Positions 195-24,000 of a stretch of 30,100 nucleotides of DNA are shown piece after piece. The DNA comes from a virus. The notes below the pieces were generated by a model. It did no database searches. It was not told the origin of the DNA and saw nothing but the letters and a program-made list of their open reading frames with translations. Both the position numbers and the translations under genes were made by a program. The stretch is from the IMG/VR virus record IMGVR_UViG_3300021379_002270, positions 1 to 30,100 of that record; one strand, 5' to 3'. Every line of letters starts with the position of its first letter. Within the stretch, counting starts at the first letter, position 1.

Positions 195-275
195 ATGGCA
201 GTAAAATGGATTCACAAAAATGGTTATTCACGCCCTGATAAGAGAACCTTAAAGAAAGGTGGAAAGAAGAAATGA
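195..275 (+). CDS. Small basic peptide, 26 aa, unknown function
   Basis: This is a short ORF read directly from the sequence, starting MAVKWIHKNGY and ending in a Lys-rich tail (KKGGKKK). The start is well supported: AAAGGAG at 181-187 is a strong Shine-Dalgarno sequence seven bases before the ATG. Its TGA stop overlaps the ATG of the next small ORF (ATGA at 272-275), which suggests translational coupling. The peptide is highly basic and could bind nucleic acid, but that is inference. No family is recognised. It lies just downstream of the 14-bp repeat array. Confidence 0.6.
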   Translation: MAVKWIHKNGYSRPDKRTLKKGGKKK

Positions 276-409
276 AAAAACCTTATTGGAATTTTTGGAA
301 AGTAGTTTTAGCAGGATGGTGTATAAGGTATCCAAAGACGGTTTTCCGAATTACTTTAATACCTATTGGAATTCTTATTGCAGTAATATATAATGCGGTT
401 GTGAAATAA
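272..409 (+). CDS. Small single-pass membrane protein, 45 aa
   Basis: This ORF starts at the ATG that overlaps the stop of the 26-aa ORF (ATGA). It begins MKKPYWNFWKVVLAGW. The second half has a continuous hydrophobic stretch (ITLIPIGILIAVIYNAVV, about residues 27-44) that fits one transmembrane helix, preceded by basic residues (RYPKTVFR). A GGTGGAAAG stretch at 258-266 could serve as a ribosome-binding site. No family is recognised. Small membrane peptides of this kind are common in T4-like phages, often in early or host-interaction regions. The coupling with the upstream ORF supports it being a real gene. Confidence 0.55.
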   Translation: MKKPYWNFWKVVLAGWCIRYPKTVFRITLIPIGILIAVIYNAVVK

Positions 410-440
410 AAAAACTCACAAAAAAATTCGGAGGGAAAAA

Positions 441-650
441 ATGATCCCAAAAGGTTCAACTGAAAAGGTATATCACATTTACGCAAAAAATAAATGTTTA
501 TTTCACTCTATAAAAGAAGAAGAATTTCAAATAACTTGGAATACACTTAAAAATATGATTGATCTAATCAAAACTGATTACAATGCAGAAGATTTATCAT
601 ATGAAGAATTACTGATCAATAAGGATGTAATTTTAAATTCATCACACTAA
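441..650 (+). CDS. Hypothetical small acidic protein, 69 aa
   Basis: The ORF begins MIPKGSTEKVYHIYAKNK and has a very good ribosome-binding site (GGAGGG at 431-436) just ahead of its ATG. The central part (EEEFQITWNTLKNMIDLI) looks like an amphipathic helix, and the second half is acidic. There is no signal peptide or membrane segment. The sequence resembles small hypothetical proteins I associate with marine T4-like phages, but I cannot name a family. It is followed at once by a sigma70-type promoter for the glycosyltransferase-like gene, so it may end a short transcription unit. Confidence 0.72.
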   Translation: MIPKGSTEKVYHIYAKNKCLFHSIKEEEFQITWNTLKNMIDLIKTDYNAEDLSYEELLINKDVILNSSH

Positions 651-679
651 TTGACAGTACATATATAAACTGTTAAAAT
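651..679 (+). promoter_or_regulatory. Sigma70-type promoter upstream of the glycosyltransferase-like gene
   Basis: A perfect -35 hexamer TTGACA (651-656) is followed, after exactly 17 bases, by TAAAAT (674-679), one mismatch from the TATAAT -10 consensus. It lies between the end of the 69-aa ORF and the ATG at 703. It differs from the TATAAATA late motifs seen further on, which fits early transcription by host-type RNA polymerase. Confidence 0.6.
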
Positions 680-702
680 TGAAATGAGGTTTTATAAAAC
701 TT

Positions 703-1536
703 ATGTCAAAAGGATTTACAGTTAAAACAAATGCCCCAACAAACAAAGAACCAAATTGGGATTTTGAAGCAATTAAAGAAAGAATGAAAGGCAAGAGCAT
801 TGTATTTTGTCTACCAGGTAGAGGATGTTCATTTACATTTTTGAAATCTTTTGTTCAATTATGTTTTGATCTTGTACAAAATGGAATGAGTATTCAAATT
901 TCACAAGACTACTCATCAATGGTTAATTTTGCACGATGCAAGTGTCTTGGTGCAAATGTTCTTCGAGGACCAAAACAAATTCCTTGGGATGGTAAGTTGA
1001 ATTATGATTATCAACTATGGATTGATAGTGATATTGTATTCAACACTGAGAAGTTCTGGCAACTTTGTGATTTAGCAATACCTGAGAGTGCAGTTGTAGA
1101 GAAAACATTACAACTTGAGGATGGTACAGAACAAAGTGTAAAATCTATTGATGAAAGCAAAGGGAACGAGATTGTAGCAGGTTGGTATTGCACTGAGGAT
1201 GGTAGAACTACTTCAGTCGCACATTGGTTAGAAGAAGAAGAATTCCGTCAAAATGGTGGAGTTATGAATCATGAGACCTTAGAAAGTATCAGCAAGCGTC
1301 GTAAACCATTTACAGTTGATTACACTGGATTTGGTTGGGTTCTGATTAAAAAAGGAGTATTCGAAAACCTTGAATACCCTTGGTTTGCGCCTAAGATGCA
1401 AGTCTTTGAATCTGGATCAGTACAAGATATGTGTGGCGAAGACGTATCATTCTGTCTTGATGCAAAAGAAGCAGGATTTGAAATTTGGTGTGATCCACGT
1501 ATTCGAGTTGGTCATGAGAAGACAAGAGTAATCTGA
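703..1536 (+). CDS. Glycosyltransferase-like protein (GT-A fold, GT2-like), 277 aa
   Basis: This is probably a nucleotide-sugar-dependent glycosyltransferase or a derived relative. Two GT-A-type signatures are visible. One is the DxD-like metal-binding motif in WIDSDIVF (Asp108 and Asp110). The other is an acidic acceptor-side motif, GEDVSFCLDAKEAGF (about residues 245-259), followed by a WCDPRIRVGHEK end segment. Near the N-terminus, IVFCLPGRGCSFTFLKSF fits the first beta strand of the fold. There is no membrane segment, so it is presumably cytoplasmic. In phages such enzymes may modify DNA bases, virion proteins or host glycans, and the substrate here is unknown. TGAGG at 685-689 is a modest ribosome-binding site. 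CGT and CGA arginine codons are used freely, unlike in the structural genes downstream. The stop overlaps the next ATG (TGATG). Confidence 0.72.
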   Translation: MSKGFTVKTNAPTNKEPNWDFEAIKERMKGKSIVFCLPGRGCSFTFLKSFVQLCFDLVQNGMSIQISQDYSSMVNFARCKCLGANVLRGPKQIPWDGKLNYDYQLWIDSDIVFNTEKFWQLCDLAIPESAVVEKTLQLEDGTEQSVKSIDESKGNEIVAGWYCTEDGRTTSVAHWLEEEEFRQNGGVMNHETLESISKRRKPFTVDYTGFGWVLIKKGVFENLEYPWFAPKMQVFESGSVQDMCGEDVSFCLDAKEAGFEIWCDPRIRVGHEKTRVI

Positions 1537-2737: not shown

Positions 2738-4651
2738 ATGGCAGCATTAATAAGTTTTACAAATTTAGATTTTGATCAAATAAAAACAAGTCTTCGTGAT
2801 TATTTGAGAGCAAACTCAAATTTTACGGATTATGATTTTGAAGGATCAAATTTATCTGTTCTTTTAGATATACTTGCATATAATACATATATTGCCTCAT
2901 ACAATGCTAATATGGTTAGCAATGAGGTTTTTATTGATAGTGCAACATTAAGAGAAAATGTAGTTTCTCTCGCAAAAAATATTGGATATGTTCCTCGTTC
3001 AAGGAAGGCATCTAGTACCAATATCAGTTTTTCAGTAGATACATCAAATTCTTCAACTTTACCTCCAACAACAATTACATTAAAAAGTGGGACTGTTTGT
3101 ACATCATCATCATCCTTTGGAAATGTTGGTTATACAGTTTCAATTCCTGATGATATTACAATTCCTGTTGTCAATGAAATTGCTATATTTGATAAGATTA
3201 AAGTTTATGAGGGAAATTATCAAAAAACATATTTTACAGTAGATTTAAGTAAAAAAACTCAAAGATTTATTCTTGATAATCCAAATATTGATACTTCAAC
3301 AATCAGAGTTTCTGTTAGGGATAATGCTGCAAGTAGTGCTGTAAGAAAATATAGTTTATCTACTGATTTATTAGAAGTTGATTCCGATTCTAAAATATTT
3401 TTTATACAAGAAATAGAAGATCAAAGATATGAATTAATTTTTGGTGATGGTATTTTTGGAAAAAAACTTGATAATTTAAATTATATTGAAGTATCTTATA
3501 TTGTGACAAATGGAGAAAATGCAAATGGTTTATTTTCATTTAATTATAGTGGAAGATTAATTGATAATAATGGAAGAGTAATTACTTCTGGTATTTCTTT
3601 AGTAATACCAGAATCTTCGACTGATGGTGGATCTGAAATTGAATCAATTTCTTCAATTAAAAAATATGCACCAAGAATCTATGCATCTCAGAATAGAGCT
3701 GTAACATCAACTGACTATGAAGCAATTATTAATAAAATATACCCAGAGACTGAATCAGTAACTGTTTTTGGTGGGGAGGAATTAACTCCTCCACAATACG
3801 GAAAAGTTTTTATTGCTATAAAACCTTTTTATGGTCCTTTTATACCAAATAGTATTAAGGACAATTTAAAATTATCATTAAGAAAATATTCTGTTGCAGG
3901 TGTAATTCCTGAAATTATTGATTTAAAATATCTATATGTTGAAATAGATACATCAGTGTATTATAATACAAATTTAGCACCTAGTGCTAATTTTGTAAGT
4001 GGTCTTGTTCAAAAAAATATTCAATTCTATGCAGATTCTACAGAATTGAATAAATATGGAGCAAGATTTAAATATAGTAAATATCAAAAAATTATAGATG
4101 ATAGTCATGAATCAATTACATCAAATATAACAAAAGTTACTATCAGAAGAGATTTATCTGCAAAATTAAATCAATTGGCAGAATATGAAATTTGCTTTGG
4201 AAATGCATTTCATATAAAAAATATTTTTGGGTATAATATAAAATCATCAGGATTTTCTATTGATGGAATATCTGGTACATTATATTTTTCAGATTTCCCC
4301 AATTCTGATTTGAATACAGGAACAATTTTTATGTTTAAATTGAATTCATCCACACAACCAGTGATCATAAGAAAATCAATAGGTACAATTGATTATAATA
4401 AAGGTGAGATTTTACTAAAACCTATTAAATTTTTATCAACACAAAAATCAATTCTTGGTCAACCAATAATAGAAATTGCTGCAATACCAAGATCAAATGA
4501 TATTATTGGATTACAAGATCTTTATTTGCAACTAGATATTAATAATAGTGTTGTAAATATGATATCTGATAATATTTCATCAGGATCTGATACTTCTGGA
4601 TCAACATATATTTCAACATCAAGTTATAGTAACGGAAACTTAGTAAGATAA
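2738..4651 (+). CDS. 6: Baseplate wedge subunit gp6
   Basis: This is a homologue of T4 gp6, the protein whose dimers join neighbouring wedges into the continuous ring of the inner baseplate; it belongs to the baseplate-J superfamily. The length of 637 aa is near T4 gp6 (660 aa). Visible signatures are the N-terminal block with LLDILAYNTYIASYNANM (about residues 42-60) and the baseplate-J-type segment RAVTSTDYEAI (about 320-330), leading to IYPE and a beta-rich C-terminal half. The start abuts the gp25 stop without a spacer or Shine-Dalgarno sequence, so it is probably coupled to gp25. A seven-base gap separates it from the giant gp7-like gene. Ser, Asn, Ile and Lys are abundant, as in the whole cluster. 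Confidence 0.92.
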   Translation: MAALISFTNLDFDQIKTSLRDYLRANSNFTDYDFEGSNLSVLLDILAYNTYIASYNANMVSNEVFIDSATLRENVVSLAKNIGYVPRSRKASSTNISFSVDTSNSSTLPPTTITLKSGTVCTSSSSFGNVGYTVSIPDDITIPVVNEIAIFDKIKVYEGNYQKTYFTVDLSKKTQRFILDNPNIDTSTIRVSVRDNAASSAVRKYSLSTDLLEVDSDSKIFFIQEIEDQRYELIFGDGIFGKKLDNLNYIEVSYIVTNGENANGLFSFNYSGRLIDNNGRVITSGISLVIPESSTDGGSEIESISSIKKYAPRIYASQNRAVTSTDYEAIINKIYPETESVTVFGGEELTPPQYGKVFIAIKPFYGPFIPNSIKDNLKLSLRKYSVAGVIPEIIDLKYLYVEIDTSVYYNTNLAPSANFVSGLVQKNIQFYADSTELNKYGARFKYSKYQKIIDDSHESITSNITKVTIRRDLSAKLNQLAEYEICFGNAFHIKNIFGYNIKSSGFSIDGISGTLYFSDFPNSDLNTGTIFMFKLNSSTQPVIIRKSIGTIDYNKGEILLKPIKFLSTQKSILGQPIIEIAAIPRSNDIIGLQDLYLQLDINNSVVNMISDNISSGSDTSGSTYISTSSYSNGNLVR

Positions 4652-4658
4652 TAAAATT

Positions 4659-7600
4659 ATGGTAAAAACCAGAGTTCAAATTAATTCCGTTGTAGAAAAT
4701 CAAATTCCTAACTTTGTAAGGGAAGATTTTCCTTTAGTCGCAGAATTTTTAAAGGAATATTATAGATCCCAAGAAATTGATGGTTCATCTTACAATATTC
4801 TTCAAAATATTGATCAATATATTAAACTAGATAAATTAACAAATCTAATAGATTCTACTATTGTAGAAAAAGTTAATGATTCTACATATTCTATTGGATT
4901 ATTTGACAATGAAATTTATGTTTCCTCTACAGAAGGATTTCCTGATAGATATGGATTAATAAAAATTGATGATGAAATAATCACATATAAATCAAAAACT
5001 GATACTTCATTTACGGAATGTGTTCGAGGATTTAGTGGAGTAGAAAATTTAAAAGATACTAATAATCCAGAAAAATTAGTTTTTTCTGTATCAGATGCAT
5101 CTGAACATGTTTCTGGAAGTATTGTTACAAATTTATCTGTATTATTTTTACAAGAATTTTTAAATAAAATAAAAAAGCAAACATTTTATGGGTTTGAAAA
5201 TAGAAAATTAGATGATAATTTAAACCAAAATTTATTTTTAAGTAGAAGTAAGGATTTCTATACTACTAAAGGGACTGATAGATCATTTAAAATTTTATTT
5301 AAATCTTTGTATGGAGTAAATGCTGATGTTATTAAACCAAGAGATTTTTTAATACAACCCTCAGATGCACAATATAGACTGACTAGAGATCTTGTTGTAG
5401 AGGCAGTTACTGGTAATCCATTAGAATTGGTTAATAGAACATTATTTCAAGATTCAGATGGATTTATTTCTAGATCTTATGGATCAGTAACTTCTGTAGA
5501 AAAGATTACAAGATCTGGAAAAGAATACTATATTGTAAGTTTAGATTATGATTTTGACAAGGATATTAATGTTTCTGGTTCAATATTTGGAAAATTTAGT
5601 ATACATCCAAAAACCATACTAGTAAATGATGTAGATGCTTCAAAAACTATTCTTGATGTAGACTCTACTTTAGGGTTTCCTAAATCAGGAGAATTATTAA
5701 TTAAATTGAGTGATCAAAATACTTTAAAAGTAACATATACTTCAAAATCTTTAAATCAGTTTTTTGGATGTTCTGGTATAACTCAAAATATTTTATCTGG
5801 ACAAGAAATATTTTATAATGCAACTGCATATGCATTTGTTGATAAAACTAAAACAGAGAAAATAGAAGTTAGAATTGGAGGTGTTTTATCGGAACTTGAC
5901 TTGCCACCAAATACTTTTCAGTATGAAAATGGAGATAGTGCTAAAATAATTTCATTGGGATCCAATGATTCTAGTATAAAATTAAATAATTGGATATTTA
6001 ACATTCCAATTGAATATGAGGTAGAATCATTTTTATGGTTAAATTCAGTTTCCATTGGGCAACAACAACCATCAATTTATAAGCATGAAATTTTTACTTA
6101 TGATAGTAATAACATTTACAAAGGAGACAGAGTAGAAATTGATATTGTTATCAGGGATTTAAATAATCAAATTGAACCATTATCAAGACTCAAAAAGATA
6201 TTTGTCGTAGAATCAGGAACAATACCAAATAAATCATTTATTGTTAATAATGATCATGAAATAATAAAAGTTTATAGTACCAAAAAACTGATAACAAAAT
6301 CTATTAATGATTATTCTGCAAATGTTCAAAATGTATATAAAGATGATAAAGAAGTATGTTATGTTGCATCACCATCTCTTCCCGATTATTTAAGTCAAGA
6401 AATAACAACTAAAAATAGATCCATTCAATTTAGTGGAATATTTGGAAATTCTTTTGTAGGTATTAAAACTGATACTATTGTTTTTAAAGGTTCTGGTGGA
6501 TCATTAAGATCTCATGGATTCTTAACTGGTGATTCTATTGCTTATATTCCAGGGGAAGGAAACAATACATTAAGTATACCAAAGAGTACTTATTTTGTAA
6601 AAAAAATTGATGTTAATACAATAAAATTATCAACAAGTCGTGAGAATATATTAAATAATATTTTTGTAGAGTTTTATGGAAATATAACAAACAATAAACT
6701 TATTCCTTTAGAATTTGTAGATACTAATTTAAATGAAAAGGTTTTAGATTCTCAAAGACTGATTAGAAAAATTGATAATCCAAAAAATGATGGAAATGTT
6801 TATGATACAAATCCAGGGTTTATTGGCATCTTTTCTAATGGTGTAGAAATTTTAAATTACAAATCACAAGATACCATTTATCACGGAAAACTTGAAAATA
6901 TTATAGTTTCTTCTAAGGGGTCTAATTATGATGTTATTAATCCTCCTGTTTTAGAAATAACAGATTCTACTGGAACTGGTGCAGAAGGTATTTGCGCAGT
7001 AACTGGATCATTATCTAAAATAAACATTATTGATCCTGGATTTGATTATATTGAAGATCCTTCAGTTATTATTACTGGAGGAAATGGAGTTAATGCAAAA
7101 GCAAAAGCTAATCTAATTTCAGTAGATCATATATCATATTTTAATTCTGAACAAATTTCTGGCCTTGTAAATTTATCCAATAATTCTATAACTTTTGATA
7201 GTGATCACAAATTTAGAGATAATGAAAAAGTTTTCTATGTCTCAGATGATCAAAATCATGTTGGAGGTTTAATTAATAATTCAATATATTATGTTTCAAT
7301 ACAAAATTCCAGAACAGTAAAAGTACATAATACATTATCCGATTCAATATCCGGAATAAACACAGTATCATTAACATCATATGGTTCCGGAATTCATGGA
7401 TTTAAATCTTACAATAAAAAGAAAATAATAGGATCTATATCAGTTACAAATCCAGGTTTTGGATATAAAAATAAACTGATAGTTGCTAAACCAGATCAGA
7501 TTATTATTGAAAATAGTACTATTAATATTACATCTCATGGTTTTAGTAGTGGAGAAATAATAAATTATTATTATTCTTCTTCTCCTATTGGAGGATTATC

Positions 7601-10600
7601 TGAAGGACAATATGTTGTTACTAAGATTGATAATAATACATTTAAATTATCTTTGATTGGATCTTCAGATAAACTATTTTATTATAATACTAAACAATAT
7701 ATTGAATTTATTACAGTTGGCAGTGGATTGCATTATTTTAATTATCCAGATATTTCAGTTGAAATTATAGGATCTATTGGAGTATCAACTTTTTCTGGAC
7801 AAGACTTTAGAGCAAAAATTCAACCAATTTTTAGAGGATCTATTGATTCAGTATTTTTATTAAATCCCGGATCAAATTATGGTTCTCAGGAAATAGTTAA
7901 TTTAAATAGAAAACCACAATATAAATTAAAATCTGGACAAGATGCAAAACTAGAACCTATAATATCCGATGGCAAAATTGCACAGGTTCTTATTTTAAAT
8001 CCAGGAAGTAATTATAACTCTCCTCCTGATATAACAGTATATGGTTCTGGGTCTGGTGCAATTTTAACACCAATAATTGAAAATGGAAGAATAATTAGAA
8101 TTAAAATAATTAATGGTGGATTTAATTATTCTAGTAAAAATACATCTATTATTGCAAATTCTGCCGGACAAAATTGCAAGTTAAACTTTAAAATACAGTC
8201 TTGGAATATAAATTTAGTTGAAAGATTAAAATTCACAAATCAAATATCAACAAATGATGGTATTGTTTCAAATGGAATTGCTGAACAATATGGATTACAA
8301 TATTGTCATGCTTATGCTCCAAAAAGATTAAGAGAAATAGTTTTTAGTAAAAATGAAGAAGATGGAAATATTAAATATAGATCAGACTTATTAAATGATA
8401 CTTTCAATGATAACTATCATTCACCTATTATAGGATGGGCATATGATGGCAATCCAATTTACGGACCCTATGGATATGACAAAGTTGATGGAGGAAGTAT
8501 AAGACAGTTATTATCTGGATATTCCGATCCAATTGTAAAATCTGGAAGACCATCATTATCTTTATATCCATTAGGATTTTTTGTTGAAGATTATGATTTT
8601 ACTGATAATGGAGACTTAGATATTTGTAATGGAAGATTTTGCATAACTCCAGAATTTCCAAATGGCACTTATGCATATTTTATATCATTACAGGAAAATT
8701 TAATTGGTGGAGAAAAACTTCCAAAGTTTCCATATTTAATTGGAAATCAATTTAAATCAAGTCCAATAGATTTTAATTATCAAAAAGAATCCAATCAAGA
8801 TGATCTTGATATCAATGGTCTAAATTTTTTAAGAAACACTAAACCATATAATTTAAATTCTAAAAATAGTAGTTATAATTATATTATAAATTCAAATGAA
8901 ATAAAACAACAAATATCAGATGTAACTTATGCTTCTGGTGGAAAAATAGATAATATAAAAATAGTTAAACCTGGATCAAATTATCAAGTCGGTGATATTA
9001 TTTCATTAGATGATGAAAACAATGAAGGATATGGATTTTATGCCACAGTTTCTTCAGTATATGGAAAAAATGTAGAGAAAATAGAATCTAAAATTTATGA
9101 ATTAAAGAATATTGAGATTATTCCATCAAACAATACTAATGAGTACATTGCTTATGCAAATTCTCCACATGAAATAAAAAATACTGATATTGTAAGCATA
9201 AGTGGTCTTGGTACATATTTTTCATCTTTACAAAATTCCTATGAAGCAAAAGTAAGCGTTTCTACTCTTATACTTTCTTCTGAAGTCGAAGACTTATCAG
9301 TTACGGGAATAGTTACGTATTTTAATGTTTATGGAAATTTAAATTATCCAAATATCAGAGAAAATGATATCTATTCTATAGAAGGTGAAATAATTAAAGT
9401 TTTAAACATAGATACAAATTCATCTAGAATAAGAGTACTTAGGCAATCTAAAACAAAATCACATAAATCTGGAGAAATATTAACAGAAATACCAAGAAAG
9501 TTTAAATTTATTACAAGTGATCGTTTAAATTATAATTATAAAATTAATAAAGAAATTTATATAAATCCAAAAGAATCTATTTGTATTGGTACAGTTGGTG
9601 CTGGAACAACACTATCAATATCAAATCCAGGTATTGGGGCAACTGAAGTTTTTGTTCCTATACAATCAATTTATATACCAAACCATGGATTAAATACTGG
9701 AGATTTATTAAAATATTATAGAAACAATAATGAGAATATTTCAGTTTTTGATGGAACAAAAACATTTAAATTAAATCAAAATTATAACATATACGTAGCA
9801 AAATTTTCAAATGATTTGATAGGAATATCAACAAATAAAATTGGAATAGGTACAACAGGTTCTTTTGTTGGAATAAATTCAGACATTGGATTATTATATT
9901 TTACATCAACAGGTACTGGATCAAATCATAGTTTTAAAACTAAAAAGTCATCAGTAGTCTTAGCAAATGCTGATAAAAAAACTGTAACAGTAACAACATC
10001 AGAACCACACAACTTACAATTTGAAGATGATATATCAGTCGAGTGTAAACCACAAATATCAAAAACCATTAAAATAAAGTATAATTTGAAATTAAAAAGA
10101 TTAGTTGTAAATCCAACTAATTTTAATGCTATTGATATAGATTTAGATACATCTTCAATAAAAATAGATAATCATGATTATAAAACAGGAGATAAGGTAA
10201 TTTATACTTCAAATTCTCCTTCTTTAGGATTATCAAATAATAAAATTTATTTTGTTGTAGTTATTGATATCAATACAATCGCACTTTCAGAATCTTATTA
10301 CAATTCCAAATTAAATTCACCAATTACTGCAAATATTTTATCACGATCCGATGGATCTATTTCTAAAATTAATCCAGAAATTGTAGTATTTAAAAATAAT
10401 AAAATTATCTTTGATCTTTCAGATTCATCATTATCTTATACTAATGGATCTACAATTTTACCAAGTTTTAAATTTAAACTATTTAAAGATTACAATTTTA
10501 CAGATGAATTTATTAGTAGTAAATCTACTGAGAATTTTGAAGTTATTGAATATGGAATTATTGGTAAAACTGGTGCAAAGATTGAATTAAATATATCTGA

Positions 10601-13376
10601 TAATATTCCAAAAAATTTATATTACGGATTAATTCCTTTAAAAAATGTTTTAGAAGGAAATTATGCAATTAAAGATAATGAATTTATTATTAATGCAAAT
10701 AAAATAAATGTATCAGACAGTCTTTATAATGGAAAAAATAAAATTTCTAATATTACTGAAAATACATTTTCATATACTGTTAATATTAATCCAGAAGAAA
10801 CTACCTATGTTTCTGGAATTAATTATACAACAACATCTACTTCTGCATTTGGTGGTATAAGTAAAATTTCAATAAAATCTAAAGGAAATGGGTACAAAAA
10901 ACTACCAGGAATTAGTGGAGTAATAAGTAAAAATGGATCAGATGCAATACTTTTACCTCAAAGTAATAGTATTGGGAATGTAAAAACTACAAGAATAATT
11001 GATATTGGCTTTGATTATTCTTCAGATTATACCATTAGACCAACTGTAAAGTTACCTGATATATTAAAGATAGAACCTTTATCAACTTTTGATAGAATTG
11101 ATATATTATATAAAGGTAAAGGTTATGATGTTGCTCCACAATTAATAGTTCTAGATGGAGTAACTGGAGAATTGGTTGACGATGTAGTTTTAAAATACGA
11201 AGTCGATAATGATCAAGTAACTATTATTAAAAATTCTACAGGTTTTTACAATTCTGTACCATCTATTATTCCAATTAATAATCCAAATGGAGTAGGAATT
11301 AGTACAATATCATTTAATGATTTAACAAAAGAAGTAACAGTCACTTTAAGTAAACAATTTAGTGATGTTGAAGATTTTCCGTTTATAATCGGAGACAAAA
11401 TCTTTGTAGAAAATGTTAGCATTATTGAAGGTACTGGTATTGGATACAACTCTTCAGATTATAATTACTCATATTTCACAGTTACTGATATTGATAAAAA
11501 TATTGGTGGAGACGGATCTAAAATTATTTTTAGTCTTATAGGATTATTGAAAAATATATCTCAACCAGGAATTTTTAATTTTTCAGAATCTTTTGGAAAA
11601 GTAATACCTGTTAGAGATTTTCCAATTTTTAACGCTATTTTAAAGAAAAATCAATTTTTCAATAGAGAAGAAGTATATGCGGAAGATTCAAATGGAATAG
11701 TAGAAAAATGGGATTCTCAAAATGAATATTTAAAAGTTGAAACAGTTGATTTATTTAAATCTGGAACATTGATTAAAGGAAAATCATCAGGTTCTCAAGG
11801 ATTTATTTCTTCCGTAAATGAATTTAAAACAACATATTCAATAGATTCAACTTCAATAGTTAAAAAAGGTTGGAATAAAGAGACTGGATTTTTAAATAAT
11901 ACCAATCAAAGAATTCATGATAATGATTATTACCAATATTTTTCATATTCTATAAAATCTCCAATTTCTTATGATGATTGGAATGATAAAGTAAGTACTT
12001 TAAATCATGCTTCTGGATTTAAAAAATTTAGTGACCTTATTGTTGAATCATACGATTCTAATTATTATGGAATTAGCACCTCTCAAAATCAAGGAGATTT
12101 TACGGGAGTTTCTAATTTATCTACTATTATAGATGTTGATTGTTACAATGATTTTGATTTGGTAAGTGAAAATCTATTTAAAATTAACAACAATAATATA
12201 TCAAATGAAATAATATTCAATTCTAGAGAAATACAGGACTATTCAGAATCAATTGGAAATAAAGTTTTAAAAATTGATGATATTAGTTCTCAATTTGATC
12301 ATTTGTCTAGATTGACTCCATATACAATTGTTGATGTATTTAAATTAGATTCTGGATATTCTAGAAAGTATATTACTTACGTTAAAGACAAGAGATATAC
12401 TGATGAAAGGCAGATATTATTAGTTACTTTACTGCAAGATGATAATTATGTATATATTAATCAATATGCAAGACTTGATAGTTATGGAGATCTTGGATCA
12501 TTTGATGCAATAATTAATGGAAATGAAGTAAGTCTACTATTTTATCCAAACAAATATGAATTTAATGATTATGATATATCTTTTGTAAATTATACATTAA
12601 AACAAATAAATTCTGGTATTGGTTCAACTTCATTTGGAGACGTTGCAACTATTATTTCTAATCAGTATTATGTACAACCTGATTCAAATCAAACGATAGT
12701 TTCTTTACCAACATCATATAGATCTGCGAAAGTTTTAGTTGAGTTTGTTGGAGATGATGGAAAATTTGAATTTGATGAATTTACAATTCTTCATGATAAT
12801 TTTAATGTAGATTTATTGGAATATGGACAATTAACTAATACATTTACATCACTTTCTTCTTCAGGATTTGGAACATATTATCCAAGAATTTCAGGATCAG
12901 ATATTTTAATTGATTATATACCATCACTATCTGGTGTAGGAGTAAGTATAACAACTTTAGTTACAGCACTAAATTCTAATGGATTTACTTCAGGTAGTCA
13001 ATCTATAGATAATGCAATATTAAGTTCTTCATATACAGGAATTTCATCTGAAACAGAACCAATTCCAAATACAGTTGCAATTTATGATAGTGCAGAATAT
13101 GATTCTGCTTATTATACTGTAACTATAGAAGATATTACTAATGGAGAATATCAAACACAAGAAATAGTGGTAATTAATGATTCTTTAAACACATATATTT
13201 CTGACTATGCAATTTTACAATCAAATAATACACTAGGATCTTTTAGTGTAAATAGTACAGTAAATGATTTAATAGAACTACAATTTACACCAATTCCTGA
13301 TATTGAAACTGAAGTTAGAGTATTTCAAAATGCTTTAAAATTAATAAGTGCAGAAACAACACCTATAGAAATTTAA
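4659..13376 (+). CDS. 7: Giant gp7-like baseplate wedge protein with YHYH domain, 2905 aa
   Basis: This ORF fills the gp7 slot between gp6 and gp8. Residues 195-219 (SRSKDFYTTKG, then SFK-LFK-LYG) closely match a block I remember from the last third of T4 gp7 (SRSYDFYSTKG, then SYKFLFKVLY). The preceding helical part (FVREDFPLVAEFLKEYYRSQ) also fits. Order: gp7-like domain, about 1-330; two 'epitope-turn' modules near 85-130 and 328-375; many beta modules of the types G-x-GY and HGF-x-GD from about 610 to 2170; a YHYH domain around 1253-1330 (NYHSPIIGWAYDGNPIYGPY, then ICNGRFCITPEFPNGTYAYF); a C-terminal triplication at about 2567-2896. It is almost three times the length of T4 gp7 (1032 aa). 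It probably starts wedge assembly through its N-terminus and projects a long modular arm. There is no clear Shine-Dalgarno sequence. The gp7 assignment rests on motif memory and synteny. Confidence 0.78.
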   Translation: MVKTRVQINSVVENQIPNFVREDFPLVAEFLKEYYRSQEIDGSSYNILQNIDQYIKLDKLTNLIDSTIVEKVNDSTYSIGLFDNEIYVSSTEGFPDRYGLIKIDDEIITYKSKTDTSFTECVRGFSGVENLKDTNNPEKLVFSVSDASEHVSGSIVTNLSVLFLQEFLNKIKKQTFYGFENRKLDDNLNQNLFLSRSKDFYTTKGTDRSFKILFKSLYGVNADVIKPRDFLIQPSDAQYRLTRDLVVEAVTGNPLELVNRTLFQDSDGFISRSYGSVTSVEKITRSGKEYYIVSLDYDFDKDINVSGSIFGKFSIHPKTILVNDVDASKTILDVDSTLGFPKSGELLIKLSDQNTLKVTYTSKSLNQFFGCSGITQNILSGQEIFYNATAYAFVDKTKTEKIEVRIGGVLSELDLPPNTFQYENGDSAKIISLGSNDSSIKLNNWIFNIPIEYEVESFLWLNSVSIGQQQPSIYKHEIFTYDSNNIYKGDRVEIDIVIRDLNNQIEPLSRLKKIFVVESGTIPNKSFIVNNDHEIIKVYSTKKLITKSINDYSANVQNVYKDDKEVCYVASPSLPDYLSQEITTKNRSIQFSGIFGNSFVGIKTDTIVFKGSGGSLRSHGFLTGDSIAYIPGEGNNTLSIPKSTYFVKKIDVNTIKLSTSRENILNNIFVEFYGNITNNKLIPLEFVDTNLNEKVLDSQRLIRKIDNPKNDGNVYDTNPGFIGIFSNGVEILNYKSQDTIYHGKLENIIVSSKGSNYDVINPPVLEITDSTGTGAEGICAVTGSLSKINIIDPGFDYIEDPSVIITGGNGVNAKAKANLISVDHISYFNSEQISGLVNLSNNSITFDSDHKFRDNEKVFYVSDDQNHVGGLINNSIYYVSIQNSRTVKVHNTLSDSISGINTVSLTSYGSGIHGFKSYNKKKIIGSISVTNPGFGYKNKLIVAKPDQIIIENSTINITSHGFSSGEIINYYYSSSPIGGLSEGQYVVTKIDNNTFKLSLIGSSDKLFYYNTKQYIEFITVGSGLHYFNYPDISVEIIGSIGVSTFSGQDFRAKIQPIFRGSIDSVFLLNPGSNYGSQEIVNLNRKPQYKLKSGQDAKLEPIISDGKIAQVLILNPGSNYNSPPDITVYGSGSGAILTPIIENGRIIRIKIINGGFNYSSKNTSIIANSAGQNCKLNFKIQSWNINLVERLKFTNQISTNDGIVSNGIAEQYGLQYCHAYAPKRLREIVFSKNEEDGNIKYRSDLLNDTFNDNYHSPIIGWAYDGNPIYGPYGYDKVDGGSIRQLLSGYSDPIVKSGRPSLSLYPLGFFVEDYDFTDNGDLDICNGRFCITPEFPNGTYAYFISLQENLIGGEKLPKFPYLIGNQFKSSPIDFNYQKESNQDDLDINGLNFLRNTKPYNLNSKNSSYNYIINSNEIKQQISDVTYASGGKIDNIKIVKPGSNYQVGDIISLDDENNEGYGFYATVSSVYGKNVEKIESKIYELKNIEIIPSNNTNEYIAYANSPHEIKNTDIVSISGLGTYFSSLQNSYEAKVSVSTLILSSEVEDLSVTGIVTYFNVYGNLNYPNIRENDIYSIEGEIIKVLNIDTNSSRIRVLRQSKTKSHKSGEILTEIPRKFKFITSDRLNYNYKINKEIYINPKESICIGTVGAGTTLSISNPGIGATEVFVPIQSIYIPNHGLNTGDLLKYYRNNNENISVFDGTKTFKLNQNYNIYVAKFSNDLIGISTNKIGIGTTGSFVGINSDIGLLYFTSTGTGSNHSFKTKKSSVVLANADKKTVTVTTSEPHNLQFEDDISVECKPQISKTIKIKYNLKLKRLVVNPTNFNAIDIDLDTSSIKIDNHDYKTGDKVIYTSNSPSLGLSNNKIYFVVVIDINTIALSESYYNSKLNSPITANILSRSDGSISKINPEIVVFKNNKIIFDLSDSSLSYTNGSTILPSFKFKLFKDYNFTDEFISSKSTENFEVIEYGIIGKTGAKIELNISDNIPKNLYYGLIPLKNVLEGNYAIKDNEFIINANKINVSDSLYNGKNKISNITENTFSYTVNINPEETTYVSGINYTTTSTSAFGGISKISIKSKGNGYKKLPGISGVISKNGSDAILLPQSNSIGNVKTTRIIDIGFDYSSDYTIRPTVKLPDILKIEPLSTFDRIDILYKGKGYDVAPQLIVLDGVTGELVDDVVLKYEVDNDQVTIIKNSTGFYNSVPSIIPINNPNGVGISTISFNDLTKEVTVTLSKQFSDVEDFPFIIGDKIFVENVSIIEGTGIGYNSSDYNYSYFTVTDIDKNIGGDGSKIIFSLIGLLKNISQPGIFNFSESFGKVIPVRDFPIFNAILKKNQFFNREEVYAEDSNGIVEKWDSQNEYLKVETVDLFKSGTLIKGKSSGSQGFISSVNEFKTTYSIDSTSIVKKGWNKETGFLNNTNQRIHDNDYYQYFSYSIKSPISYDDWNDKVSTLNHASGFKKFSDLIVESYDSNYYGISTSQNQGDFTGVSNLSTIIDVDCYNDFDLVSENLFKINNNNISNEIIFNSREIQDYSESIGNKVLKIDDISSQFDHLSRLTPYTIVDVFKLDSGYSRKYITYVKDKRYTDERQILLVTLLQDDNYVYINQYARLDSYGDLGSFDAIINGNEVSLLFYPNKYEFNDYDISFVNYTLKQINSGIGSTSFGDVATIISNQYYVQPDSNQTIVSLPTSYRSAKVLVEFVGDDGKFEFDEFTILHDNFNVDLLEYGQLTNTFTSLSSSGFGTYYPRISGSDILIDYIPSLSGVGVSITTLVTALNSNGFTSGSQSIDNAILSSSYTGISSETEPIPNTVAIYDSAEYDSAYYTVTIEDITNGEYQTQEIVVINDSLNTYISDYAILQSNNTLGSFSVNSTVNDLIELQFTPIPDIETEVRVFQNALKLISAETTPIEI

Positions 13377-13384
13377 GAACTATT

Positions 13385-16300
13385 ATGGGAGCATTAATAG
13401 AGAGTGGTTACGGAAGTTATGTTGGAACATCAAATAAAGTTAAAACATCATTTAACTTAACTTATAACGGATCACATATTTTTAAAAAAGAATTAAATTC
13501 TGAGGATAATAATTTTGTGGGATTGGGATCAGATTCCAGTATTTTATCATTCGACAATCATTTTTTTGTTAGTGGAGAAGAAATTAATTATGATTATGGA
13601 TCTGGATCTCCAATAGGTATTGCAACTACAGTTATATCAGGAGTTTCGACCGATAAACTTCCATCTACAATATATGCTATAAAAATTGATAATAATAAAA
13701 TAAAAGTAGCATCATCGCCAGAAAATGCTCTTAAATTCATTCCAAAGTTTTTAGAAATAACTACTCTCGGAATCGGAACTCAACATTATTTTATTTCGAA
13801 AAAGCAAAATACAAAATCTTTAATAACTATTGATAATGTTATACAATCTCCGGTAGTTTCTACTGGAGTCACTACAATATTATTAGGAAATATTAATATC
13901 ACCCAAAATACATTTCCAGTTTATAATCCCAAATTATTCTCATCAGGAGATATTATAAAAATTAATAGTGAAATAATGAAAGTTAATTCTATTGTTAATA
14001 ATTCACTACAAGTAACAAGGCAATTTTTGGGTACAGAAATACAGAATCATAACTCAGGATCATTAGTTGCAAAATTATCAGGAAATTATAATATTGTAGA
14101 TAATACATTATATTTTAGATCTGCTCCTTATGGCAATGCTCCACAAGAAAACCCTTTAAATCCTTATGATGTAGACTATGCTGGTATTGTAACATCATCA
14201 TCTTTTAGCGGTAGAATATTTTTAAGAACAGCAGAATCAGATACTACGAAAGAAACTTATACAGATAATTATACATTTGATAATATATCAAATCAAATAA
14301 TAGGATTAACTACTAGTTATGAATTAACTGTAAATGGTCAAAGTATTACCAATATAAGTGAAAATAATTCTACAATTTTAGTTAGAAGTGTATTTCAAAC
14401 ACCAAAAAGAACAGGTCCAAAACCAATAATTGGAGATTATTATCTTTCAGAGCAATCTGGAAAAACTAAAATTTATTTTAGTGGGGAAAAGTCTGAAAAT
14501 TATTATGATATTAATTCTTCAAGTATTCCATTGGGCGGAATAATTGTTTCTGTTGGATCTACTTCTGGTAATGGATATCAACCATTAGTCTCTGCAGGAG
14601 GAACTGCTTTAGTTTCAATTGCAGGATCTATAGATTCTATAATCATAGGAAATAATGGGTCTGGATATAGATCTGGTATACAAACTAACGTATTTGTTGG
14701 TGTTAAAACCGAAAATCTTTTTGATTTAAATGTAGAGATTATTGGAACTGCTTCACTAGATAATGGTAAAATATCAAATATTAACATAACAAATCCCGGA
14801 TCTGGATATAGTCAAACAAATCCACCTATAGTTATCATAGATTCTCCTGTTGGATACAAAAATATTCCTTTAGTATACAGTCAATACTCGCAGTCTGGTA
14901 TTGGAACAGGAGCATCTGTAGATTTAGAAGTAAGTTTATCTGGAAAAGTATCTTCATTTCAAATTAAAAATAATGGATATGGGTATGAAGTTGGTGATAT
15001 TTTAACCGTTGAAGTTGGTGGTACACACGGAATACAAACAGATAATTCAGTTCAATTTGAAGAATTTCAAATTTATGTGGATGAAACTTATAAAGATGAT
15101 GTTTCTGGATGGACTTTTGGTGAACTTGAAGTATTGGATTCTTTTGATTCTTATTTTAATGGGACTAGAAAAAAATTTTTTATTAGAAAAGAGGGATTAG
15201 TTAGATCAATTAGAGCAAAAAAAGGTTCTGATATAGATGTTGAACCATCTTTACTAGTTTTTATTAATAATATCTTACAAGTTCCAGGAGAATCTTATAC
15301 TTTTACTGGAGGAAGTGTAATAACATTTAAAGAGGCTCCTAAAGGGGAAGATCCAAATTATCCAGGTTCTGGAGATAAATCTAAAATATTATTTTACAGA
15401 GGAACTAAAGATATAGATGTTATTGACAAAGATATATTAGAAACTGTAGAAGAAGGGGATATTGTTGATATTAATTCTGATCTTTTATTTTTAGATGAAG
15501 ATGAAAGATTAGTTACAAGTATAATATCTTCAGATAGTATTAATACAAATCCATATGCTGGGCCAGGATCAAGTGCAGATGAAAATTTATTGAGACCTAT
15601 TAGTTGGTGCAAATCAAAAGTTGATAAAGTTATTGATGGTAAACAAGTTACTAAAGATAGAATCTATAATGAAGCACTTATAAATCCTATTACAAATATT
15701 ATACAGTCCGTTGGAATTGGATCTACTGCTGAAATTTTTGTTGAGAATGTAAAATCATTTTTTGATAATGAAAAAGAATTAGCTCCTAGTAAAATTAAAT
15801 CTACTATTCAAATAATTTCCCAAAATCAAATAAAATCCGAAATAATTGATAATGTAATTTATGAAGGAGATTTTGGATTTATAACAGGTATAACTACAAC
15901 TACTGTTGGTGTTGCTTCTACTGCAATTATATTATCTCTATTCATACCGGAAAATTCAGTTTTAAATGATCCAGAAATTACAAAACCTATTATTAACACT
16001 AGTGGTATTTCAACAGGATCATTTTTTGTAATTAAAAATACTAATATTGGTAATGGTGTTACATCTCTTTATAATGATGGAGCAATTTTATCTATTGGAT
16101 CAACTTTTATTGACAATGTGTATCAAGCATATTCTGCAGATTTTTCTCCAGATTTAATAACTCAATCACAAATAATAGTTAATAGTGTTATATATGGTAG
16201 TCCTTCAATTATAAATGACGATACTACTATTCTTATTGAAAATGGAGGAACTCTTACAATTTCTGACTATTCTCCACTTAAAGTTACTACTTTAATTGAA

Positions 16301-16498
16301 GATTATAATGGAATAGATTCATCTTTATCTTTATCACAGAGTAGTTATTTTGGAGAATATAGTTGGGGAAGAATTACTGCACAAAAAAGAAAAAATCCAA
16401 AAGAATTTGAATTTTATCCAACAGGAACTATCGGGATTTCAACATCTGCAGTTGTTAGAAGATTTTATCCCTTAAAGTATTTAAATTATAACCCATAA
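13385..16498 (+). CDS. Unassigned virion (baseplate/tail) protein, 1037 aa
   Basis: This protein lies between the gp7-like giant and gp8 and is almost certainly structural. It has no T4 counterpart that I recognise. From the N-terminus it shows: a short start (MGALIESGYGSYVGTSNKVK); an HGF/GD-type module at about 56-115; an 'IN-EIM ... VTRQF' module at about 189-220; a run of G-x-GY beta repeats at about 385-545 (for example NPGSGYSQTNPP and NNGSGYRSG); and a C-terminal part with LLVFINNILQVPGESYTF and a terminal block FYPTGTIGISTSAVVRRFYP. There are no membrane segments. The start is 8 bases after the previous stop, without a Shine-Dalgarno sequence. Similar proteins follow gp7-like genes in marine T4-like phages as I remember them. 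It may be a peripheral wedge or fibre-attachment component. Confidence 0.72.
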   Translation: MGALIESGYGSYVGTSNKVKTSFNLTYNGSHIFKKELNSEDNNFVGLGSDSSILSFDNHFFVSGEEINYDYGSGSPIGIATTVISGVSTDKLPSTIYAIKIDNNKIKVASSPENALKFIPKFLEITTLGIGTQHYFISKKQNTKSLITIDNVIQSPVVSTGVTTILLGNINITQNTFPVYNPKLFSSGDIIKINSEIMKVNSIVNNSLQVTRQFLGTEIQNHNSGSLVAKLSGNYNIVDNTLYFRSAPYGNAPQENPLNPYDVDYAGIVTSSSFSGRIFLRTAESDTTKETYTDNYTFDNISNQIIGLTTSYELTVNGQSITNISENNSTILVRSVFQTPKRTGPKPIIGDYYLSEQSGKTKIYFSGEKSENYYDINSSSIPLGGIIVSVGSTSGNGYQPLVSAGGTALVSIAGSIDSIIIGNNGSGYRSGIQTNVFVGVKTENLFDLNVEIIGTASLDNGKISNINITNPGSGYSQTNPPIVIIDSPVGYKNIPLVYSQYSQSGIGTGASVDLEVSLSGKVSSFQIKNNGYGYEVGDILTVEVGGTHGIQTDNSVQFEEFQIYVDETYKDDVSGWTFGELEVLDSFDSYFNGTRKKFFIRKEGLVRSIRAKKGSDIDVEPSLLVFINNILQVPGESYTFTGGSVITFKEAPKGEDPNYPGSGDKSKILFYRGTKDIDVIDKDILETVEEGDIVDINSDLLFLDEDERLVTSIISSDSINTNPYAGPGSSADENLLRPISWCKSKVDKVIDGKQVTKDRIYNEALINPITNIIQSVGIGSTAEIFVENVKSFFDNEKELAPSKIKSTIQIISQNQIKSEIIDNVIYEGDFGFITGITTTTVGVASTAIILSLFIPENSVLNDPEITKPIINTSGISTGSFFVIKNTNIGNGVTSLYNDGAILSIGSTFIDNVYQAYSADFSPDLITQSQIIVNSVIYGSPSIINDDTTILIENGGTLTISDYSPLKVTTLIEDYNGIDSSLSLSQSSYFGEYSWGRITAQKRKNPKEFEFYPTGTIGISTSAVVRRFYPLKYLNYNP

Positions 16499-16518: not shown

Positions 16519-18078
16519 ATGTCCGCAATTATAACTGATCAATTTAGAATATTAAATGCAAGTAATTTTGTAGACCTATTAACCTCTACATCATCATCAT
16601 TTTATTCTTTTGTTGGTTTATCTAATGCTACAGACTATGATTCAAATTGGGATGATAATCCTCCATCACCAAAGGACAATTTTGATGAAGAGAATGATTA
16701 TTGGGATACAATAATTGCTCTTAAAAAAATTTCAAATGATGATGTTAGACAAGTAATAAGAAAAATTACTTGGAGTTCTGGAACTACTTATGATATGTAT
16801 AGACATGATATTAGTAGATTCAATCTAGCAAAACCTTCAAATGCAACTAGTTTATATTCATCAAACTTTTATGTGATGAATAGTGAATATAGAGTTTATA
16901 TTTGTTTACAGAATGGATCAGATCCAGAAAATCCAAATGGGAGACAATCATTAGATGAACCTCAATTTGTAGATTTAGAACCTGGATCTGCGGGAACAAG
17001 TGGAGATGGGTATATTTGGAAATATTTGTACACAATAAATCCAAGTGACATTATTAAATTTGATAGTATTAATTTTATTCCTGTACCAAGAAATTGGAAG
17101 ACTTCTACAAATTCATCTATTGTTTCTGTTAGAGAGAATGCAAGTACTAGTGGACAAATAAAAGTTATAACCATAAAAAATAGAGGAATTGGTATTGGAA
17201 CAGCAAATCAAATTTATACAGATGTTCCTATCAAAGGCGACGGTTTTGGTGCATCAGCAACTATAGTAATTGGTAACGATTCTAAAGTTGAATCTGTTAT
17301 TGTTTCAGACGGGGGATTTGGATATACTCATGGTAGACTAGATCTTTCTGCAGCAGGTGTTCCTCAAGCAACTATTAATCCTATATTTGATGTAATTATT
17401 CCCCCTCAAGGTGGACATGGTGCAGACATTTATAGAGAACTTGGTGCTACCAATGTTTTAGTTTATTCTAGAATTGAAAATGACATTGAAAATCCAGATT
17501 TTATCACAGGAAATCAAATTGCTAGAATTGGATTAATTGAAAATCCATTGAGTTATGGAACATCATCTACAATAACCTTAGATAAAGCAAGTGCTGTTTC
17601 TGCAATAAAATTAGTTGGTGCAGGATATAGTTTTGCATCATTTGATCAAGATTCTAGAATTACTCAAACAATAGGACTGGGAATTACTGCAGTTGGTAGA
17701 GTAATTTCTTATAGTAAAGAAACTGGAATATTAAAGTATTGGCAAGATAGAAGTCTTGTTGGATTTAATACTGATAAAACTCAAAATAATTTTCCTGAAT
17801 ATGGATATAATTTAAATAAGTTTACTTCAGATATTAGTGCTGGTGGAGAATTAATTATTAAAGGTGGTAGTACAAATTTAAACATTGATTCTGCATTTAC
17901 TGGTGTGTCAACAACTATAAATAGTAGAACATATAATCTAGGTCAACAATTTAATAATGGAATTTCTAATCCAGAAGTTCAAAAATATTCTGGAAAGATC
18001 ATTTATGTTGACAATAGACCTTCTATTACAAGGTCTATAAATCAAAAAGAAGATATTAAAGTAATTTTGCAATTTTAA
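16519..18078 (+). CDS. 8: Baseplate wedge subunit gp8 with internal insertion, 519 aa
   Basis: This is a homologue of T4 gp8, a dimeric wedge protein that bridges gp7 and gp10 in T4. Two blocks match T4 gp8 from memory: GDGYIWKYLYTI (residues 162-173; T4 has GDGYVWEYLFEI) and the C-terminal YSGKIIYVDNRPSI then EDIKVILQF (about 490-519; T4 has SGEMIYMENRPPI then EEINILFTF). It is about 185 residues longer than T4 gp8 (334 aa). Much of the extra length lies between the two blocks and includes G-x-GY-type repeats (ITIKNRGIGIG and VSDGGFGYTHG, about 213-285) like those of the neighbouring giants. A candidate late promoter precedes it, with no Shine-Dalgarno sequence. Six bases separate it from the next gene. 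Confidence 0.92.
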   Translation: MSAIITDQFRILNASNFVDLLTSTSSSFYSFVGLSNATDYDSNWDDNPPSPKDNFDEENDYWDTIIALKKISNDDVRQVIRKITWSSGTTYDMYRHDISRFNLAKPSNATSLYSSNFYVMNSEYRVYICLQNGSDPENPNGRQSLDEPQFVDLEPGSAGTSGDGYIWKYLYTINPSDIIKFDSINFIPVPRNWKTSTNSSIVSVRENASTSGQIKVITIKNRGIGIGTANQIYTDVPIKGDGFGASATIVIGNDSKVESVIVSDGGFGYTHGRLDLSAAGVPQATINPIFDVIIPPQGGHGADIYRELGATNVLVYSRIENDIENPDFITGNQIARIGLIENPLSYGTSSTITLDKASAVSAIKLVGAGYSFASFDQDSRITQTIGLGITAVGRVISYSKETGILKYWQDRSLVGFNTDKTQNNFPEYGYNLNKFTSDISAGGELIIKGGSTNLNIDSAFTGVSTTINSRTYNLGQQFNNGISNPEVQKYSGKIIYVDNRPSITRSINQKEDIKVILQF

Positions 18079-21000: not shown

Positions 21001-24000
21001 TCTGATGATGGAGATATTACAACAATAAATTCATATAATCAATTTGATTATTGTACTATTACTTTTGCTAGGGAAAACGTTAATAATGGCGATATTATTG
21101 ATGTAAGACCAAAAGTTTCCAATTATACTGTAAGTGAGTCTAGTTCAAGATCTCCATTTGAGTTTTTAGGTAGATCATTTAGTCAGGTATCAAATAGTGC
21201 TAAAAATATTTTAGCATCAGATGAATCTTTAGTAGTAGATTATTCTTATTATTTACCAAGAATTGATAGAATTTTCTTAACAAATGAAGGTGTATTTCAA
21301 CTAAATCAAGGTGATCCATCAGAAATTCCACAACCACCTGCTGGAGTTGATGATGCTTTAGAAATAGCATCTATTTCATTACCAGCATACCTATGCGATG
21401 CTTCTAAAGTAACAATTAAATTAATGAATCATAAACGATATCAAATGAAAGATATCGGAAAACTTGAAGATAGAATTAAGAGTTTAGAATCAATAACTAC
21501 TTTAAATCTACTAGAAACTAACACAGAAAACTTAAAAGTCAAAGATGCAAATGGTCTTGATAGATTTAAGTCTGGATTTTTTGTTGATGATTTTACATCA
21601 ACATCATCTCAAAATAAATCTGGTATAGTAAAGAATTCAATTGACCCATCTCTTGGTGAATTGAGACCTGCTCCGTTCACAACAGAAATTGATTTACAAA
21701 TAGGATCAAAATCTTTAGTTGGAATTGGAACATCTGCAGATCCAACTAAAGATCCTAGATTTGTAACAGACTTGGTTGGTAATAATATTAGAAGAACTGG
21801 TCAATTAGTAACACTTGAGTATGAAGATGTAGTTAAAGTTCAAAATCTTTTTGCAACAAGAACTGAGAATGTAACTCCTTTTTTGATTACTCGATATAAC
21901 GGAACAATCGAATTATTCCCTTCATCAGATACCTGGACAGATCAAGTTAGAACTGATGCAAAACGAGTAGAAATTGACAATTATACAGAAACAGAGCAGC
22001 AATTAATTGCTCAAGGATGGGATCCTCAAACTGGTTATAGTCCAGTAACTTGGGGTGCATGGGAGACTACTTGGACTGGATCTAGCACCACATATGAAAG
22101 TTATAATAATTATCATTATGGTCATTATGGATATTGGGGTTATCCTTACTATTATGGATATTGGAATTATCCTTACTATTATGGATATTGGGGTCGTAAA
22201 TATTGGTGGAATTATGGATATGGATATTATTACTGGGGATATCCTTGGTATTACAATTATAGCACTACAACAATTGCAACTACAACAAATACTGGAATCG
22301 AAACCAGAGAGGGCACTCAGTTTAAATTAAGTGAAAAAATTGACACATTCTCTCAGGGAGATTCTATTATTGCTACAGATTTCATTTCTTATATGAGATC
22401 TAGAAATATAGAATTTACTGGAAAAAGATTTAAACCATTAACACAAGTATATGCATTCTTTGATGGAGAAGATGTTAGTTCATATATTATACCAAAACTA
22501 TTAGAGATCTCTATGATTTCTGGGACATTTGAGGTTGGTGAAACAGTAATCGGAACCATGTTGAATTCATCTACAAATGAAAATCCAGTTTCTGGAGAAG
22601 TATTAAATCAATTTGTATGTAGATTAGCAACATCTAATCATAGATATGGCCCATACAATGAACCAACTGATATCTTTATTACAAATCCATATAATTCAGA
22701 GTCAACAACCAATTTACCATCAGATTATTCTTCCACTTCAGAAATTCTTAATATAGATACATACTCTTTATCTGAGCAAGCACAGGGTGATTTCTATGGA
22801 TATATTCAAACTGGTATGATTTTAAGAGGACAATCTAGTGGTGCAGAAGCAACAATTACAAATATTAGATTGTTTACTGATAGTGTAGGAACCATCATTG
22901 GTTCATTCTTTATTCCTAATCCTAATGTACCATCAAATCCGACATTTGAAACTGGAACAAAAACATTTAGATTAACTAGTAGTTCTGTAAATTCATTAAT
23001 TGATGGTATTACAACAACTAGTGCTGAAGAAAATTATTATGCCCAAGGAATATTAAATACAATTCAAGAAACTATAGTATCTGTTAGAAGTGCTAGAATT
23101 GAATCCGAAACTTTAACTGAAAGTAAAGATATTTCAGAAACAACTACATCTACATCAACTGCAATAAAAAATATTTGGGGAAATACTATTCGTACCTATG
23201 CTAATGGTGAGTTTGGTTATTGTTATTGGGATCCTCTTGCACAATCATTCTTCGTATCCGAAAAAGGTGGAGTATATATTACTAAGGTAGATCTATTTTT
23301 TAGAACAAAAGATGTAGAAACACCAGTAGTAGTCCAACTTCGTCCAATGTCAAATGGTGTACCAAAGACAGACGTGCATCCATTTAGTGAGGTAGTTGTT
23401 GAACCAAAAGATATTAATTTGTCTGAGGATGGATCGGTATCTACAACAATTACATTCCCATCTCCAGTATATTTAAAAGGTGACTCTGAACATGCTTTAG
23501 TATTGCTTTCACAATCAAATGAATATAATGTTTGGATTTCTAGATTAGGAGAAATTGATGTCACAACACAGAATCTACCAGAGTCTCAACAAGTAGTTGT
23601 TACCCAACAACCACTTTTAGGATCTTTATTTAAATCTCAAAATGGTTCTACATGGGATCCAAGTCAATATGAAGATTTGAAATTTATACTTTACAAGGCA
23701 AAGTTCTCTACTCAATCAGGTGATTTTAATTTTTATAACCCAATATTAAATGTTGGTAATAAGCAAGTTGCAAACTTACTTATAAATCCACTACTCTTTA
23801 ATTCTAAAAAAATTAAAGTATCATTATCATCTACTATTACGGATTCTAATTTGAAATTTGGAAATACTATAGTACAGCAAGGTTCTAATGCCAGTGGTAA
23901 TTATGTTGGCGTTGCTGGATCTGCATTTGGAACACTTAATGTTATTAATAGTGGTATTGGATACTCTGATGGATATTATACAAATGTTCCATTAATTAAT

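Follow-up and report, generated by a model that had tools for sequence, protein, structure and literature searches.

A tyrosine-, tryptophan- and glycine-rich segment, probably at the tip of a β-hairpin, in the DUF4815/VrlC baseplate protein of a clade of uncultured phages

Abstract

Among relatives of the DUF4815/VrlC baseplate protein, a segment built largely of Tyr, Trp and Gly (the Y/W/G segment) is confined to one supported clade of uncultured phages. We tentatively propose that it constitutes a flexible aromatic hairpin tip on a pyramid-forming baseplate protein and adheres to the host, a reading to which we assign a probability of roughly 0.45. Its location at a tip is moderately supported; adhesion by the segment and, by analogy with a related phage, exposure of the tip in a pyramid are what we infer beyond that.

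Results and Discussion

Genomic context and identity of the protein

The DNA analyzed here (the window) is a 30.1 kb stretch of an IMG/VR record, in which profile matches identify baseplate, neck and packaging genes of the T4-like type. These include wedge proteins resembling gp25, gp6 and gp8, neck proteins resembling gp13 and gp14, a gp3-like sheath stabiliser and a small terminase, the T4 gp numbers being our presumptive reading of the family names. The nearest isolates are Synechococcus phages, namely S-SM2 for gp6 (61%) and for the DUF4815 protein (46%), and S-SKS1 for gp13 (71%), which places the window with or near the Kyanoviridae. The psbA gene, sought as a clue to the host, occurs in none of six partial contigs, all of which are fragments. 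The window begins with a tandem array of a 14-bp unit (CATAAGGTCTCAGA; about 10 perfect copies at positions 2-139, at the contig start). As a 98.6% identical relative (L194) carries 6.9 copies at the same place (1233-1328), the array is real, variable in copy number and upstream of the structural genes, rather than an artefact of the assembly end. A gene of unknown function, phrog_1574 (703-1536), adjoins the baseplate genes and weakly matches a phage glycosyltransferase family.

The first-pass annotation had assigned the aromatic segment to a giant DUF4815 protein, and profile searches bear this out: PF16075 (DUF4815) is matched with E 6e-58, at 196.9 bits against a curated cut-off of 30, and phrog_358 is matched at 2026 bits across residues 1-2556. 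A sequence search of the PDB recovered the DUF4815 chain of the baseplate of Staphylococcus phage phi812 (E 1.5e-40). The gene lies between that of the gp8-like protein (16519-18078) and the neck genes (26160 onwards), the same position as in S-SM2. VrlC has been suggested as a substitute for gp7 (PMC7029224), a role that we do not favour, since the window has a distinct giant wedge family, phrog_2885, further upstream. The 4179 positions of that family are divided between two adjacent genes in the window, the first (4659-13376) matching positions 6-2886 and the second (13385-16498) from 2914 on; this could be either a natural gene split or a frameshift or assembly break.

Table 1. Features of the DUF4815/VrlC gene and its Tyr/Trp/Gly-rich segment (window coordinates)
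Feature	Coordinates	Strand	Basis
DUF4815/VrlC baseplate protein gene, 2556 aa	18085..25755	+	PF16075, phrog_358, phi812 chain match
Predicted jelly-roll (lectin-like) domain, first half, from which the strands leave	21817..22083 (approximate)	+	fold match to 9euj_G
Predicted β-strand entering the segment (residues 1327-1346)	22063..22122	+	AlphaFold2, both models
Tyr/Trp/Gly-rich segment, residues 1337-1392	22093..22260	+	composition; low pLDDT, few sequences in model
Two adjacent 27-nt copies	22138..22191	+	25/27 nt identical; direct reading and TRF
Core YPYYYGYWGRKYWWNYGYGYYYWGYPW	22168..22248	+	residue order common to 8/11 variants
Predicted β-strand leaving the segment (residues 1389-1427)	22249..22365	+	AlphaFold2 model 1; shorter in model 2
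Predicted jelly-roll domain, second half	23257..23712 (approximate)	+	AlphaFold2 model, fold match, phi812 sequence match

Composition and internal repeat of the segment

Translation in the frame of the DUF4815 gene yields YESYNNYHYGHYGYWGYPYYYGYWNYPYYYGYWGRKYWWNYGYGYYYWGYPWYYNY, confirming the 26 Tyr and 7 Trp in 56 residues reported in the first-pass annotation, as well as the 42 of 56 residues that these make up together with 9 Gly. Tyr and Trp thus account for 33 residues, as against a maximum of 13 and a mean of 8.8 in 500 shuffles of the whole protein, which rules out chance composition. A wrong reading frame is likewise ruled out, since the segment shares its frame with the 2556-aa ORF and the gene continues in neither of the remaining frames. 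No other open frame in the window with 100 codons or more contains a comparable segment.

A tandem 9-residue pattern had also been described. TRF detects a 27-bp period at 22124-22194 with 2.6 copies, and two clean copies can be read directly (GYPYYYGYW at 22138-22164 and NYPYYYGYW at 22165-22191), preceded by a degenerate third (YHYGHYGYW, 22111-22137). The tandem pattern therefore spans about half of the segment rather than all of it. In alignment, the second copy is missing from L002, the next closest variant. At the site of the window's Tyr-rich repeat L002 has an Arg/Trp run (YWRRRWWRRRYWG; 3598-3800).

A hypervariable site and a clade-specific trait

The site is a hypervariable linker between a left flank (DPQTG.SP..W.AWET.W.G) and a right flank (R.G...GD......MRSRN) that are both conserved. 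In many relatives the linker is Thr/Arg/Gly-rich, often with Gly-Trp motifs; it is short in S-RIM8 and missing in Synechococcus phage ACG-2014f, and a different stretch is found at this point in Ackermannvirus FEC14 and Staphylococcus phage IME-SA1. None of the isolates compared, which form part of the 407 phage records matching the region, has a Y/W/G segment. In a set of linkers from other lineages that includes many near-duplicates, Trp is about twice as frequent as in the flanks (3.2% vs 1.6%) and Tyr is rarer (0.5% vs 3.3%). In a distant homologue, the VriC protein of Escherichia phage FEC14 (L086), the 56 residues richest in Tyr and Trp (898-953) also fall at this position, with GAGGVWWGYRY as their last residues; exposed aromatics here may therefore be more widespread in the family.

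The number of Tyr and Trp per 40 residues is bimodal among the relatives, being either 0-4 or 18-26, a count that leaves aside the short variant L107 and the truncated L108, both added by direct reading. In a tree built from a short region and containing some long branches, the 12 Y/W/G rows fall on one side of a branch with support of 95/90, and the trait calls for one change, a number as low as which was reached in 0 of 500 shuffles. One relative (L001) is 99% alike to the window and identical in the segment, and scanning IMG/VR for GYPYYYGY returned four matches in the DUF4815 Y/W/G family and one unrelated match.

The cores of the 11 variants are 15, 39, 39, 56, 56, 57, 57, 60, 60, 67 and 69 aa long. 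Their 575 residues include 204 Y, 130 G, 107 W, 38 R, 31 P, 27 N and 24 H, a single E and one Phe, and not one I, L, V, M, C or D. In 8 of the 11, a stretch of 27-28 residues of the type PYYxGYWGxxYxW...YYWGYPW keeps its register; the short variants are without it.

Predicted structure

Two AlphaFold2 models bear on the location of the segment: the first covers residues 1036-1900, with 36 sequences and low overall confidence (pLDDT 56), and the second, of 345 residues, is poor (mean pLDDT 43) and lends support to the two flanking strands only. These strands are predicted to be long and Thr-rich. For the segment itself the pLDDT is mostly 24-29 in the first model and <50 in the second, with few sequences behind either, so that no confident fold is predicted and disorder would be compatible with the models. 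Given this result and the range in core length from 15 to 69 aa, the segment does not appear to be a short, conserved globular domain of fixed length, and its initial characterization as low-complexity rather than globular sequence is upheld.

Using VIA-align, range 210..840 of the model was matched to phi812 chain 9euj_G (Z 19.5, 165 residues, rmsd 2.3), and the next structural matches include the Cwp84 lectin-like domain (Z 11.0); residues 1714-1891 also match the phi812 protein by sequence. The two strands probably pair as a β-hairpin that leaves this lectin-like jelly-roll and bears the segment at its tip, and we infer from the strands of the model that the jelly-roll is split into two halves around the hairpin.

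Selection or drift

Local alignment of the segments beats composition-preserving shuffles with z of 3.7-16.3 for most pairs of long forms. For the window and L002 against L108 z is 1.7-2.0 only, and pairs that include short forms do not as a rule exceed the shuffles. Among pairs that differ at all, L007 and L008 are the closest, and their segments show 12 synonymous and 7 nonsynonymous codon differences; the pattern is reversed between L004 and L096 (4 and 16), and the window and L002 differ by 13 and 18, respectively. A clear sign of purifying selection is thus confined to short evolutionary distances. The synonymous excess of L007 and L008, together with the shared order of the core, nevertheless makes selection likely, as opposed to drifting repeat DNA; on balance, these sequence comparisons suggest that selection acts on the composition of the segment and, in long forms, on residue order.

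Pure drift of repeat DNA is weakened as an explanation by the mixed codons used across the Y/W/G segments, by the order test and by the synonymous excess. Of the recent tandem growth proposed initially, the 27-bp copies stand, but most long variants keep their order and the closest pair differs mostly by synonymous substitutions, so that such growth is not the whole explanation. It seems improbable to us that the segment is neutral filler, i.e. a functionless, tolerant loop swollen by slippage of repeat DNA: such an origin would fit the 27-bp duplication in the lineage of the window, the variable length and the missing loop of ACG-2014f, but composition has persisted despite deep divergence (for most pairs, the flanks are 55-80% identical), residue order is conserved with mixed codons, and synonymous changes exceed nonsynonymous ones in the closest pair. 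The notion that the insert outpaces its flanks in evolution is not supported, the mean identities being 0.65 and 0.66, with that of the insert inflated by low complexity. A diversity-generating retroelement was rejected, as the identified genes of the window include no reverse transcriptase and the segment of L001 is identical.

A candidate adhesive tip

Contact with host glycans or membrane, or a stacking spine, had been suggested initially, and each would be consistent with what was observed. Tyr and Trp in the company of Gly, Asn, Arg and His, without acidic or aliphatic residues, suit stacking on sugars and contacts with anionic polysaccharides. In Pfam and NCBIfam, four variants searched at E up to 10 gave no match to any family, carbohydrate- and cell-wall-binding ones included, the filters of such searches being poor on low complexity. 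A PDB search with the segment gave one match, to an antibody heavy chain that contains a Tyr-rich stretch (E 0.017).

The behaviour of Listeria phage A511 provides the main analogy. Its Gp106 protein assembles into trimeric pyramids, of which there are two for each tail fibre; once binding by the receptor-binding protein has taken place, the upward-facing pyramids turn to the cell (PMC9863714), becoming reoriented to the cell wall (PMC9863714; PMC11406892). If this analogy holds, three DUF4815 copies would form a pyramid that turns cellward when the tail docks; the tip, nearly free of acidic residues, would then present many exposed Tyr and Trp rings alongside Gly, Asn, Arg and His, and many weak stacking contacts could hold sugars of the host surface or lipopolysaccharide. 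A hairpin projecting from a lectin-like domain would be a good place for a contact surface, provided that the window protein behaves like Gp106; the trimeric state and the exposed position are both borrowed from the homologues, the model being silent on either.

We count the following in favour of an adhesive tip: 1) the homology to phi812 (E 1.5e-40; Z 19.5) combined with the behaviour of the A511 pyramids. 2) The Cwp84-like domain (Z 11.0) and the two predicted strands that flank a segment for which no confident fold is predicted. 3) Lengths of 15-69 aa in which I, L, V, M, C and D are all absent, with order kept beyond composition in most long variants. 4) The twofold enrichment of Trp in the linkers of other lineages. 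Against it, the model is of low overall confidence, the segment matched no carbohydrate-binding family in the searches above, most relatives are without the segment, so that the baseplate works without it, and the conserved core could equally serve contacts between subunits. In the latter case, tips of the three subunits of a pyramid, or of neighbouring pyramids, would zip together through their aromatic residues and so stiffen the baseplate, without touching the host. Such a structural spine, which we consider rather unlikely, would agree with the conserved order of long forms, the long Thr-rich strands and the trimeric state of the homologues (PMC9863714). A packed interface would, however, poorly tolerate length variation of more than fourfold and the missing core of the short forms, and most relatives manage without the segment.

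Since membrane interfaces are favoured by Trp and Tyr, an aromatic, basic tip might instead insert into the outer membrane surface on docking. The Arg-rich variant L002 and the near absence of acidic residues point in this direction, but the 575 residues hold no aliphatics and one Phe, and L009, L095 and L107 are devoid of any Arg or Lys; we therefore give this mode of contact little credence. Returning to adhesion to surface glycans, it is possible, if doubtful, that a fast-evolving aromatic pad on the pyramids supplies a further, less specific hold on the host once the tail fibres have made their choice, through multivalent stacking on envelope polysaccharides and tuned by growth and shrinkage of the tip.

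Comparison with known systems

In bacterial genomes GYPYYYGY occurs at 63 places, 51 of which lie in similar Y/W/G-rich stretches. These belong to presumed secreted proteins and lipoproteins that share both the composition and the GYPYYYGY words of the phage segment; their N-termini, read by eye, mostly resemble signal peptides or lipoprotein signals, suggesting that the stretches face the envelope. The proteins themselves are different and no common flank was seen, and the likeness is therefore likely to be convergent. The phage segment would be a low-complexity sequence apparently under selection in a virion machine, with the same make-up as stretches of many bacterial secreted proteins.

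The VrlC/DUF4815 proteins of the Kyanoviridae (S-SM2, S-TIM4, S-RIM8 and others; phrog_358) resemble the window protein in their place after gp8, in 32-46% likeness over the whole length and in the conserved flanks; in the isolates compared, the linker is Thr/Arg/Gly-rich, short or absent and, unlike that of the window, lacks the Tyr/Trp-rich segment. Gp106 of A511 and DUF4815 of phi812 (PDB 9euf before contraction, 9eui and 9euj after it) belong to the same family by sequence and fold and have in common with the window protein the Cwp84-like domain, which has also been reported for the Deep-Blue and Vp4 homologues of Gp106 (PMC11406892). These proteins differ in being about half as long as the window protein (1152 aa in phi812) and in their Gram-positive hosts, and the Staphylococcus homologue compared is without the Tyr/Trp-rich segment. 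In A511, the upper layer of the double-layered baseplate is known to turn hostward. A clade whose predicted outer tip is built of Tyr, Trp and Gly would mark that tip as a point of contact and suggest what it might bind. The DUF4815 protein is of a kind already known, and the Tyr/Trp/Gly tip, as predicted here, represents a new variation on it.
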